Source of the DNA: Acidipila sp.
Lineage (GTDB): Bacteria > Acidobacteriota > Terriglobia > Acidiferrales > UBA7541
Assembly (NCBI GenBank): GCA_010365215.1
Contig: JAAFGT010000005.1
Coordinates: 1 to 64,000, forward strand
Reading direction: 5' to 3'
Length of the DNA: 64,000 nucleotides
Shown here piece after piece: positions 6,376 to 59,400 of this stretch. Every line of letters begins with the position of its first letter. The stretch's first letter is position 1. The notes below the pieces were generated by a model. The model had not been told where the DNA came from, ran no database searches, and worked only from the letters and a program-made list of their open reading frames with translations. A program made the position numbers and the translations under genes.

Positions 6376-7101
6376 ATGGACCGACTAACTGGAATTCACG
6401 CGGTACGCGAAGCCCTCTCCGCGGGGCGCGCACTCGATCGCATTGTCATCGCACGCGGCCGCAAAGGGGACCGCATCGAGGAGATCGTTCGGCTGGCGAA
6501 GGAGCACGGCGTTCCCGTACGCTTCGAAGACCGCGAGCAGGTAGCGCGCCTGGCGGGCCCGGGGGAACACCAAGGCGTGGTGGCGCTGGCCGCGGCGAAG
6601 CAGGCCACGCATCTGCAAGACCTGTTAGCCAGCGGCAAGAAAGGCGGGTTGCTGATCCTGCTCGACGGCGTTGAAGACCCGCGGAACCTGGGCGCCATCA
6701 TCCGCACGGCGCTCGCCGCCGGCGCGATCGGCGTGGTAATCGCCGAACGCCGCGCTGCGGGACTCACCGAGACCGCCGGGCGCGCCGCCGCTGGGGCGCT
6801 CGAACATCTTCCGGTCGCGCGCGTCACCAACCTGGCGCGCACCATGCAGGAATTGAAAGATGCGGGATGGTGGCTGGTGGGTCTTGACGAGCAGGCGACA
6901 AAAAATTATACCGAAGTAGATCTGGCCGGGCAGATCGCCATCGTTCTAGGCGGCGAAGGCAAGGGACTGCACGAGCTGGTGCGCAAGCGCTGCGATTTTC
7001 TGGTCTCGATTCCCACCACCGGCCCGGTGCGCTCGCTCAACGTTTCCGTAGCCGCCGGCATCGTGATCTTCGAAGCTGTCCGGCAGCGGCGGAAACGCTA
7101 G
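6376..7101 (+). CDS. rlmB: 23S rRNA 2'-O-methyltransferase, RlmB/SpoU family
   Basis: SPOUT-class methyltransferase that uses SAM to 2'-O-methylate a guanosine, in RlmB G2251 of 23S rRNA. A substrate-binding N-terminal domain opens 'DRLTGIHAVREAL'. The three SpoU motifs follow: 'LDGVEDPRNLGAIIRTA', 'IAIVLGGEGKGL' and 'SIPTTGPVRSLNVSVAAGI'. Its 241 aa match the family. It lies 38 bp after the GltX-like gene and is convergent with the OsmC-like gene, their stop codons overlapping by two bases. Another SpoU target cannot be excluded. Confidence 0.92.
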   Translation: MDRLTGIHAVREALSAGRALDRIVIARGRKGDRIEEIVRLAKEHGVPVRFEDREQVARLAGPGEHQGVVALAAAKQATHLQDLLASGKKGGLLILLDGVEDPRNLGAIIRTALAAGAIGVVIAERRAAGLTETAGRAAAGALEHLPVARVTNLARTMQELKDAGWWLVGLDEQATKNYTEVDLAGQIAIVLGGEGKGLHELVRKRCDFLVSIPTTGPVRSLNVSVAAGIVIFEAVRQRRKR

Positions 7102-7562
7102 CCTTCTTCTTTAATTTCTGCCGACCAGGTGATGGGAAAGCCACGCTTAATGCTTTGGTGTACAGGGCAGTAGTTCTCGTGGCTGGCCAGGGCACGATCC
7201 GTTTCCGCCCGGCGGCCGGCGGGAATGGTCACCTGGTAGCCCACATGAACGCTATCGATGAGAAACATCTTTCCTTCGGAGCGAATCTTTGCTTCCACAT
7301 GGGCCACGAGATTATTCTCAGTGGGGATCTTGCGCGCTTCCAGCGCGCCGGCAAGCGTGCCCGCCATTCAACCGGCGAGGGCGGCCACCAGGTGGTCGAT
7401 GGTCGTGGGCAGCGGCTCAGCAGGCTCGGCATTATAAAACGCCGCATAGCCGCCGTGCATTCCGAATCGCAGCGGCTGGTCAAATCCCTCGATATGCGCT
7501 TCGCGAAGCGGGCGCTTCTTCTGCTCCAGGCGTATTCGCGCGGTGTGAATGATCTCGGACAA
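7098..7562 (-). CDS. OsmC-family peroxiredoxin, candidate selenoprotein (in-frame TGA = Sec65)
   Basis: OsmC-family proteins are thiol peroxidases that reduce organic hydroperoxides with two cysteines. Here one frame is interrupted by a single TGA (7368-7370). Before it the frame reads 'TTIDHLVAALAG', and after it 'MAGTLAGALEARKIP' through to the second motif 'ASHENYCPVHQSIKRG'. The TGA lies exactly where the family has its peroxidatic Cys (AxxGCxxxT), while the resolving Cys in 'NYCPVH' is kept. Read through, the protein has 154 aa with Sec at 65, a normal OsmC length. I take the TTG at 7562 as start because AGGAG lies six bases upstream. A hairpin lies just after the TGA. The alternative is a point nonsense mutation. 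Confidence 0.75.
7332..7348 (-). promoter_or_regulatory. Candidate bacterial SECIS hairpin
   Basis: Downstream of the TGA on the coding strand, GCGCGCT and AGCGCGC form a perfect 7-bp stem closed by a GGA loop. It begins 19 nt after the TGA. Known bacterial SECIS elements are short hairpins inside the coding region about 16-37 nt after UGA with a G at the start of the apical loop, which this fits. The region is GC-rich, so a chance hairpin is possible. Confidence 0.6.
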
Positions 7563-7617
7563 TTTGGTCTCCTGTGGGTCTGCGCGGTTGCTCCCCGCGA
7601 CAGAAGCTGCCAATTTA

Positions 7618-8139
7618 CTATTTGTCGTAATGAACGAGGGAAAAAACGTCGGAATTGGTAAGTTTTTCGCGTCCGTCAAGAAAAGTCAATTCCACGGCGA
7701 AGGCAGCGCCGGCAACTTCCCCGCCCAGTTGGCGAATCAGTTTTGAGGTGGCCGCGGCCGTGCCCCCGGTGGCGAGCAGATCGTCGCACAACAGCACGCG
7801 CTGTCCCGGCTGCACCGCGTCCTGATGGATTTCCAGCGTGTCGGTGCCATATTCCAGGGCGTAGCTGACGCTGGCGGTTTTCCACGGCAGTTTCTTCGGT
7901 TTGCGCACCGGCACGAATCCTGTGCCGAGCTGGTAGGCTACCGCCGGCGCGAAAATGAATCCGCGCGCCTCAACGCCGGCCACTACGTCAATATTCTTTC
8001 CTTTATAGTGTGCGGCAATTCCGTCGATCACCGTACGCAAACCTTCCGCGTTCTGCAGGAGGGTGGTCAGATCGTAAAACAGGATTCCGGGCTTGGGCCA
8101 GTCCGGCACTTCCCGGATCAACTTCTTGAGATCCATCAT
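7618..8139 (-). CDS. apt: Adenine phosphoribosyltransferase
   Basis: Purine salvage enzyme making AMP from adenine and PRPP in the cytoplasm. The protein opens '[19 protein letters not shown]', a hallmark of Apt. It carries '[19 protein letters not shown]' and the PRPP-binding loop '[16 protein letters not shown]'. At 173 aa it is full length. It lies 55 bp upstream of the OsmC selenoprotein candidate on the same strand and may be co-transcribed with it. Confidence 0.95.
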
Positions 8140-55741: not shown

Positions 55742-55861
55742 CACGCCGCGCGAACTGCGACAACCGGAACTTGGAAGACGATTGCCCCCGCTTTCCCAAG
55801 CATCGATCTTGCCTTACCATGAATTCGTGACGCTAAGCTTTTGCCGTCGCCGGAGGAATTA

Positions 55862-56425
55862 ATGCGCATTCGCTGGATTTCACTCGCTCTTATTTGTCTC
55901 TCGTGCACCTCGCTTGCTCCGGCGCAGGCCAAGAAGCCAAACCAGGACCCGAAACCGAGCCAGGACCAAAAACCAACTATAGACATCATAAAAATGGCGG
56001 ACATCCGGCGGCTGATGCACTTGACCCGGGCGGACGCGATAGGTGAGCAGATCGCGGGGCCGTTGATGCAGAATCTCAAGCCCGACCTGGAGAAAGTTCC
56101 GCCGGAAAAGCGCGAGCGCGTACAGAAGATGAGTGACACCATGATTCAGAAAATGCTGGCCTACATGAAGGTCGAGCCCATCTCCGAGCTGGCGGTTCCG
56201 CTGTACGACAAATACTTCACCGCGGAAGAAATCCGCGCCATGATTCAATTCTACGAGTCTCCCGCGGGACGCAAATTCACGGAAGTACAACCGAAGATGG
56301 CAGATGAGCTGATCCCGATGGCTATCGGGCATGCGCAACGAATCCTGCAACGCGTGCTCACGGAGATGCAGGCGGATTACCCGGAGTTGAGAGAAGGCCA
56401 GCAGCCTACCGCACCGAAGCCGTGA
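55862..56425 (+). CDS. Secreted DUF2059 protein
   Basis: A 187-aa exported protein. The signal peptide ends 'SLAPAQAKKP'; a Lys/Pro/Gln linker follows. The DUF2059 part contains 'EPISELAVPLYDKYFTAEEI' and 'MIQFYESPAGRKFTEVQPKM', the best-conserved family motif. GGAGG precedes the ATG. Its function is unknown throughout the family. Confidence 0.9.
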   Translation: MRIRWISLALICLSCTSLAPAQAKKPNQDPKPSQDQKPTIDIIKMADIRRLMHLTRADAIGEQIAGPLMQNLKPDLEKVPPEKRERVQKMSDTMIQKMLAYMKVEPISELAVPLYDKYFTAEEIRAMIQFYESPAGRKFTEVQPKMADELIPMAIGHAQRILQRVLTEMQADYPELREGQQPTAPKP

Positions 56426-56449
56426 GCTGACGACCGGTACTCCGTGCGC

Positions 56450-59400
56450 CTACTTCAAGCGCTTGGTGCGCTTGATATCCAGACCGAAGGTGCCGTTCTC
56501 ATCGCGCAGGGCGAGAATCGAAAGATCGCGGCTGACGTTGTACTCGATTTGAAATACCTGGCGCTGCGTGGAAGTCACATTGGTGACGTAGGTGATGGTG
56601 AGGTCGCGGGTCACGCGCTGTTCAATGGTGATGCGCGCGGTAGCGTTCTGGTCGGCGCCCACGCCTGAAAACGCCGGGTCCACGCGGAAACGGCTGACGC
56701 CAAAAAGCCGTTCGATGCGCCCGCCAAGCTGGCTGGAGATGGCCTCCGAGAGGACCGCTCGCGCGCCCACATCCGCCGTTCCCCCGCCGCCGGTGCTGCG
56801 CAACTGGCTTTCCGCGCCGGTGTGGCCCAGCGCCAGCAAGGTAATGATGTCGCCGGGCGGCAGCGGAGGGTCGGCATGGTAATTGAGAGTGAGGTGGCTG
56901 GCCGGCCCGGACAGCTGGATACTCACTTCGTACTGCTGAATAGTGGTGGTGGCCTCGACGTCAATGACCGGATCGAGCCGGAACGGATTTGCAAAATTCA
57001 TGTCGCCGCGCGTCAGGCGGTAACGGTTTCCGCGGAAGTCCATCTCCCCAGCGAGGAGGTGGACGTGCCCCAGAAGGACGGGATGCTCCGCTGTGCCGCG
57101 GACGCGCAGGGCGGCTTCACTCTCGAAACGGGCGGCGTTCCACTCCAGCCGTGCGTCAGCGCTGGAGATGGCTTCAACATCAAATTGCAGGTTGCGCAGG
57201 AAAGCCGAGCCGGTGGTGCTGCCGCGCACGTTGTCGCGTGAGGCCATCACCGAGGAAAGATCCAGTCCCTCCATCATGAGGAGCCGTTCCACAACTACGC
57301 GCCCGGAGAGCAGCGCGCCGTCCGGCGTACCCTGCAGGCGCAGGTGGCCGCTGGTCAGCCAGCTCAACCCCACCGGATAGCGCACGCGCACTCTCTGCGC
57401 CTGCGTGTTCAGGTCAAAACGCAACGGGCCGTCTCCGTAACTCACGCTGCCGGTGAGCACCAGTTTCCCGCCACCCACTTCGGCGGCCACGTTTTCAAAA
57501 AACAGCCGGTTGACGTCGAACACGCAATCTCCGGTGACGTTGCTGAGCCCGGAAGGAAAATCACCATAATTGGCGGCGGCATTTTCGAGGTGCAAACGTC
57601 CCGTGATGCGCGGGCGGGGCATGGAGCCTTCGAGGGACGCATGCATGACCGCTGCGCCGCGGGCCTCGAGTTGCGGCCAGATCCCCGTGAGCAGTCGCAG
57701 GTTGGCGCGGCCATCCACCATCATGGCGATATGGCGATCGCCGGCGAAGCGTGCGAAGCCGGTGAACGTTAAATCGGTATCGGGTCCGGCAAGGTGCGCC
57801 GAAGTGATGCGTATTTCGTCGCGGCTGTAAGTGAAGCGTAGTGGTCCCACATTTTGCAGTTTGACGTACTCATAATCTAACGACATCTCACTCACGTCGG
57901 CATCCAGGCTGATCTGCCCGGGATCGGCCAGCGGCCCGGCGAACTTGAAACGCCCCACCACGCGGCTGTGACCCGTGAGTTTTTTCAATCGCAGCCCGGT
58001 CTGCAGGAACGGGTCCAAGTCCACATTTTCGACATTTATTTCGCCGCTCAGCGGATAGTTGCCTGAAAGAGTTACCGCCAGGTGGCCGTCGAGCTTGCCT
58101 GTGCCCATCGTTGAGGTAGTCTCCACGCGGAGCTCGCGGCCGTCGGAGTGAATCTTAGCGTCGAAGTCTCCCAGAATTTCATCACCCACCTTGAGTTGGG
58201 TGAGCCGGATGGTGCCTTCCGCGGAGGGGGCGCGGAGCGGGCCGTTGCCACGCACGTCAAACTGCAATCGCCCTCCCAGGGGCAGACGGGAGTTTCGTAG
58301 CGGCTCCAACTGTTCCAATCCGACATCCGCCGCGGCCAGTTCAAACTCGATGTGCTGGCTCTGTTGCAGGTAAGTCAGGGTGCCGTGGGCCACCGCCGGG
58401 CCCTTGTGCAGTTCGCCATTGGTGACGCGAACTTCATCTCCCTTCCATTCCAGATTACCGCCGGCGCGATCGAAATGCATGCTGCGGGTCACCAGGTCGT
58501 CGATGGTGAATGTAGCAGAGAGAACGGGGTCGGCCCGCGTGCCATGGCCGCGAAACGTGCCGCTCAACATTCCCTTAGCCGCGAAAGAAGTGTGAAACAG
58601 GCCCTGCAGCCCGTCGGTATCCTCGTGCGCCAGGCGGACGTCGAGGTTCCAGGTATTCTCGGGCAGGAAGGCCCACTGATCCAGTGTCATCGAAAGGTTG
58701 AGTAGGGCTGTAGCCGGCGCGCGGCGCGCACGCGTCTGCGAAAGCCGCAAATGATCGTGCGAGTAACTGAGATCTCCTTCAATTTCATCCCACAGAAAAT
58801 CTTCGTACGCCGCATCCCAGGCATGCACGTGGCCGTCGAAACTGGCCAGCGCCAGCGGGCCGGCGATCTTCCCCACCCACTGGGCGCGGCCGGCGATGCG
58901 CTGCGGTGCCGTTCCCGGCCCACGAAGCGCGTTGATGAAGTCATCCCACGGCAATACATCGCCGGCATCGAGCTTCACATGGAGCGCGGAATCCCGCATG
59001 CCCAGCCTGCCGTCCATTTCGATTCGCGTGCTCGGCGTAGCAATTAAACCGCCGGTCAGGTCCGCGGCCTGCGAGTCGCGGGAGAAATGAAATGCCGTGT
59101 GGGCAGAGACCGGTATTTTTCCGGGCGCGAGATGCGCGGGCTCGGACCATTCTGTAAAGCCGCGCGAATCCAGGTGATCAAACGCGCCGGTCCAGGTGCT
59201 GACCGCGTCTGCCGCCACCGCAGCGTCCCAGTGTAATGACTCGACGGGAAAACCGTTGTGCTGCAGCGCCGCAAGAATTGTACTTAGGCTCATCCCGGCC
59301 GAGTGCGAAGTCATGCGAAAACGAAGCCGCGGCACATCCATCTCCACGCGCGCTTTCAAATCTCCTTCGAGAAGATGTGCGTCGAGATTCGGCACCACCA

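Follow-up and report, generated by a model that had tools for sequence, protein, structure and literature searches.

An apparent stop codon very probably read as selenocysteine at an OsmC-type active site in an acidobacterium

The 64,000-nucleotide stretch of acidobacterial DNA analysed here (the window) carries an OsmC-domain gene on its minus strand, between a phosphoribosyltransferase gene and an rRNA methylase gene (Table 1). Translated on that strand with TGA read as U, positions 7562-7098 give one product with a single in-frame TGA, flanked as VAALAG-U-MAGTLAGAL, and with a second cysteine within HENYCPVH. The first-pass annotation had described two ORF halves in the same frame parted only by TGA, and these were confirmed to form one gene; it had placed the locus correctly but left the strand unstated, and the plus-strand reading of 7098-7562 contained no OsmC-like sequence. 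The ribosome-binding site, the TTG start and the family-like length that it proposed also held up, with homologues agreeing with the window gene on both start (MGEIVHTA...) and length. The apt-like gene and osmC are probably co-transcribed. The three closest relatives share the gene order apt-osmC-rlmB, which is also seen around a decayed copy in genome G010. When the whole window was scanned for frames joined across a TGA whose two halves both show coding-like codon usage, osmC ranked first with a score of 37.5 against 26.4 for the next, and in the remaining frames no domain spanned the TGA. A separate observation concerns positions 55823-57235 of the plus strand, where a DUF2059 gene is followed by same-frame coding-like sequence past two TGA codons, with no domain across them.

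Table 1. Coordinates of the osmC locus and its features within the window
Feature	Position	Strand	Detail
Phosphoribosyltransferase gene (apt-like), upstream of osmC	7618..8139	-	55 nt before osmC
Ribosome-binding site AGGAG	7569..7573	-	6 nt 5' of the TTG start (7562-7560)
osmC-domain gene, predicted selenoprotein	7098..7562	-	154 aa; TTG start; TAG stop at 7100-7098
In-frame TGA, predicted selenocysteine, residue 65	7368..7370	-	Peroxidatic-Cys position of OsmC by alignment
Predicted bacterial SECIS hairpin	7332..7348	-	7-bp stem GCGCGCU/AGCGCGC; apical loop GGA
Second (putative resolving) Cys codon, residue 132	7167..7169	-	Invariant in 59/59 aligned sequences
SpoU/RlmB-type rRNA methylase gene, convergent with osmC	6376..7101	+	Stop codons overlap (CTAG)

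The window protein matched the Pfam OsmC domain (PF02566) at 51.6 bits (cut-off 27.5; E = 1.3e-13), above the gathering threshold, and its predicted structure has the OsmC fold. An AlphaFold2 model with 19 homologues in the input reached a pLDDT of 91.3, and a Foldseek search with this model returned OsmC/Ohr structures throughout, the best being 2onf (TM 0.78/0.85), 1ml8, and E. coli OsmC 1nye. A profile search paired U65 with the first cysteine (AGC) of a solved OsmC protein, that of Thermus thermophilus (1ukk), and C132 with its second (CPV), placing a Sec or a Cys at the peroxidatic and resolving positions of the OsmC/Ohr family and supporting the initial assignment of the TGA to the peroxidatic cysteine. 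The protein scored below all NCBIfam OsmC/Ohr cut-offs.

We sampled 101 related genomes together with 396 from across the Acidobacteriota, a survey covering this one phylum, and found that close homologues nearly always carry one in-frame TGA, aligned with the redox cysteine of the others. Among 58 aligned relatives the codon column held TGA in 52 and TGC in six and nothing else, so that with the window included 53 of 59 sequences, drawn from many families of the phylum, have TGA at exactly the same column and the others TGC, which excludes chance. The second cysteine was conserved throughout, as had been predicted from the single sequence. Comparison of the window gene with L018-L020 gave dN of 0.18-0.37 and dS from 1.3 to saturated both before and after the TGA, with synonymous change among the closest relatives near saturation and nonsynonymous change low, indicating that the codons on either side are under purifying selection. 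Scattered stops or frameshifts, which the first-pass annotation had named as signs against a selenoprotein, were absent from sister genomes with the single exception of the G010 orthologue (L085, G010:C35:14300-15500), which has decayed through a frameshift and an internal deletion with its TGA still in place. A single-sequence scan of genome contigs returned two close relatives, a doubtful match (L054) and nothing else, and a search of viral contigs and plasmids found no homologues.

All four components of selenocysteine decoding, which the first-pass annotation had proposed looking for, were present in the window's genome: a tRNA-Sec with UCA anticodon (58.8 bits; gathering score 47), selA (545 bits), selB (366 bits, about 18 kb past the window end on the same contig), and selD (366 bits; L048:1405-2478 on the minus strand, G000:C88). 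The selD gene has an in-frame TGA of its own near the N-terminus (KAAGUAAK) and is itself predicted to encode a selenoprotein. Further matches to the tRNA-Sec model besides L001 were ordinary tRNAs where checked, L002 and L003 being tRNA-Ser. Among the 101 relatives, selB scored above the cut-off in 25 of the 28 genomes with the TGA form; of the other three, G041 has a partial selB only, and the incomplete assemblies G079 and G099 (82-88% complete) have none above the cut-off. In the Cys-only genomes selB was found above the cut-off in none of five, but these all belong to one genus and so represent one evolutionary event, not five. The sixth genome with a Cys form, G004, has selB and also a TGA copy, so that a Cys copy (L025) and a diverged TGA copy (G004:C25:12996-13448) of the OsmC family occur there together.

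Downstream of the TGA we found a hairpin that agrees with published criteria for bacterial SECIS elements, which call for a loop of 3-9 nt with a G in its first two positions, a stem of 4-16 bp, a spacing of 16-37 nt, and a minimum free energy of -7.5 kcal/mol or lower (PMC13188914). The window hairpin has the loop GGA, seven base pairs, a spacing of 26 nt from the UGA to the apical loop, and -17.7 kcal/mol over a 39-nt region, and the earlier suggestion to look for such an element near the TGA was thus answered positively. A Rfam scan of the hairpin region gave no family match. Tested alone against dinucleotide shuffles, the hairpin gave a weak signal (z of -0.5 to -0.6), and synonymous-codon shuffles and covariation were therefore applied instead. 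Across 51 distinct Sec sequences 87% of the pair cells were standard, the pairing was lost when the partner strand was slid, and cells changed on both sides numbered 13 against 2.7 expected, a value reached by none of 2000 shuffles, although these amount to only two to three tree-independent events per pair. In the Cys genes 73% of cells were paired and there were no two-sided changes; the hairpin is degraded there. The clearest examples couple a wobble base with an amino-acid substitution: where Val (GTG) replaces the downstream Ala, the upstream Ala is encoded by GCA and not GCG in nearly all cases, and a Val at the upstream position (L059, L066) goes with GCA for the downstream Ala. For the Leu at the apical loop all 51 distinct Sec sequences use CTG, as opposed to 48% CTG across all their Leu codons. 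The conserved peptide AGALEAR spans the hairpin and favours palindromic codons, and the folding excess above synonymous-codon shuffles was modest, with a mean z of -0.98 for the Sec genes, -2.17 for the window, and -0.22 for the Cys genes.

Readings of the TGA other than selenocysteine have to be weighed against these data. If the codon were a true stop created by a nonsense mutation, the 3' half of the gene would be dead, and the G010 copy demonstrates that decay does happen in this lineage; however, the recurrence of the same codon in sequences from many families refutes a pseudogene, and the purifying selection and the invariant cysteine downstream of the TGA bear out the original argument against decay, leaving this explanation extremely improbable. 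A sequencing or assembly error that turned a cysteine TGC into TGA might be imagined from the six homologues that have TGC at this site, but dozens of independent assemblies share the TGA, and the TGA genes come with Sec machinery and a hairpin, so that the chance of an error is negligible. An open frame alone would look alike if UGA encoded some other amino acid through genetic code reassignment or a suppressor tRNA, and we found nothing else in favour of such a reading. It is very unlikely given that several of the homologous genes end in a TGA stop, that the tRNA-Sec and full sel set are present, and that cysteine is the sole alternative residue at the site. We infer from the sequence data that selenocysteine is inserted, and the initial selenoprotein interpretation is supported by the Sec machinery, the conservation of the UGA, selection, and the hairpin, all the refutation checks that were run having come out in its favour.

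Based on these data, we consider it highly likely that the osmC product is a thiol-dependent peroxidase of OsmC fold with Sec65 in place of the peroxidatic cysteine, the UGA being decoded by the genome's own Sec system via the SECIS hairpin. SelA, SelB, SelD, and tRNA-Sec would decode the UGA, steered by the hairpin just downstream of it. The selenolate of Sec65 would then attack a substrate that is presumably an organic hydroperoxide, the resulting selenenic acid would condense with Cys132 as resolving cysteine to a selenenylsulfide, and a cellular dithiol, the probable reductant, would reduce this Sec65-Cys132 bond. Peroxidase activity of the window protein would be expected from its family, Cys-based OsmC/Ohr enzymes being organic hydroperoxidases, and the two-Cys geometry of OsmC/Ohr is retained. 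The alternative of a true selenoprotein with an OsmC-fold redox function on another substrate, and hence no peroxidase, draws on the position of the window protein under every NCBIfam OsmC/Ohr cut-off and on a subfamily with no member known to be characterised; we regard it as unlikely, although a serious possibility. Annotation that halts at the TGA would truncate or drop the osmC gene in dozens of Acidobacteriota, and the family would extend by one the set of antioxidant selenoproteins predicted for this major bacterial phylum.

OsmC-like selenoproteins with the motif UxxT are known from Sargasso Sea and GOS data (PMC1088965, PMC2398784), and reviews of 2022 and 2026 list them as one family with this motif (PMC9312934, PMC13188914). 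The first-pass annotation was thus correct that such proteins had been reported from metagenomes, but the published family is a different OsmC branch. NCBIfam has a single model for OsmC-related selenoproteins, NF041052 (OsmC_like_Se), which we take to represent that family on account of what it is called and of the motif ULLT in a member. The published proteins (PF02566/COG1765) have in common with the window protein the OsmC domain, a Sec in place of the redox Cys, and a downstream cysteine; in contrast to their UxxT, the window protein has U-M-A-G-T (UxxxT), with U-[ML]-x-G-T as its subfamily motif, and it scored 19.3 bits where the NF041052 cut-off is 95. A genuine member from the same phylum, L086 (G470:C43:18752-19195; motif ULLT), scored 178.7 bits against this model, and BLAST found no significant similarity between it and the window protein. 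Genome G470 carries both families, L086 (UxxT) and L056, which belongs to the window's subfamily (UxxxT). The motif, the model score, and the dissimilarity to L086 place the window protein outside the described family, although the fold and the proposed working are alike, and the curated model does not reach the window's subfamily. The survey also returned further OsmC-like matches with one in-frame TGA that lie under the NF041052 cut-off (G252:C1:4340774-4341151, G162:C46:22700-23068, and G224:C136:24586-24960). A search of the open-access literature found no paper describing the window's subfamily, which is apparently an undescribed second subfamily of OsmC-type selenoproteins in Acidobacteriota. 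We think it probable that this second family (UxxxT) usually has Sec in the Acidobacteriota and takes its Cys form in a lineage that lost SelB.

Relative to the Cys peroxidases OsmC (TIGR03562) and Ohr (TIGR03561), such as 1nye and 1ukk, the window protein shares the fold and both redox positions, but they have Cys where it has Sec, and its sequence scores 24.2 bits, under the TIGR03562 cut-off of 85.8. The Cys homologues of the sister genus g5 (L025-L030) belong to the same subfamily as the window protein, have TGC at the site, and are 36-39% identical to it in the five that were measured. Five of their six genomes are without selB, and their SECIS hairpin is the degraded one described above. 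If the Cys form indeed arose where SelB was lost, these genes offer a natural comparison of Sec and Cys, in which the cost and benefit of selenocysteine at one active site become testable between the selB-less, Cys-only sister genus and its Sec-bearing relatives.
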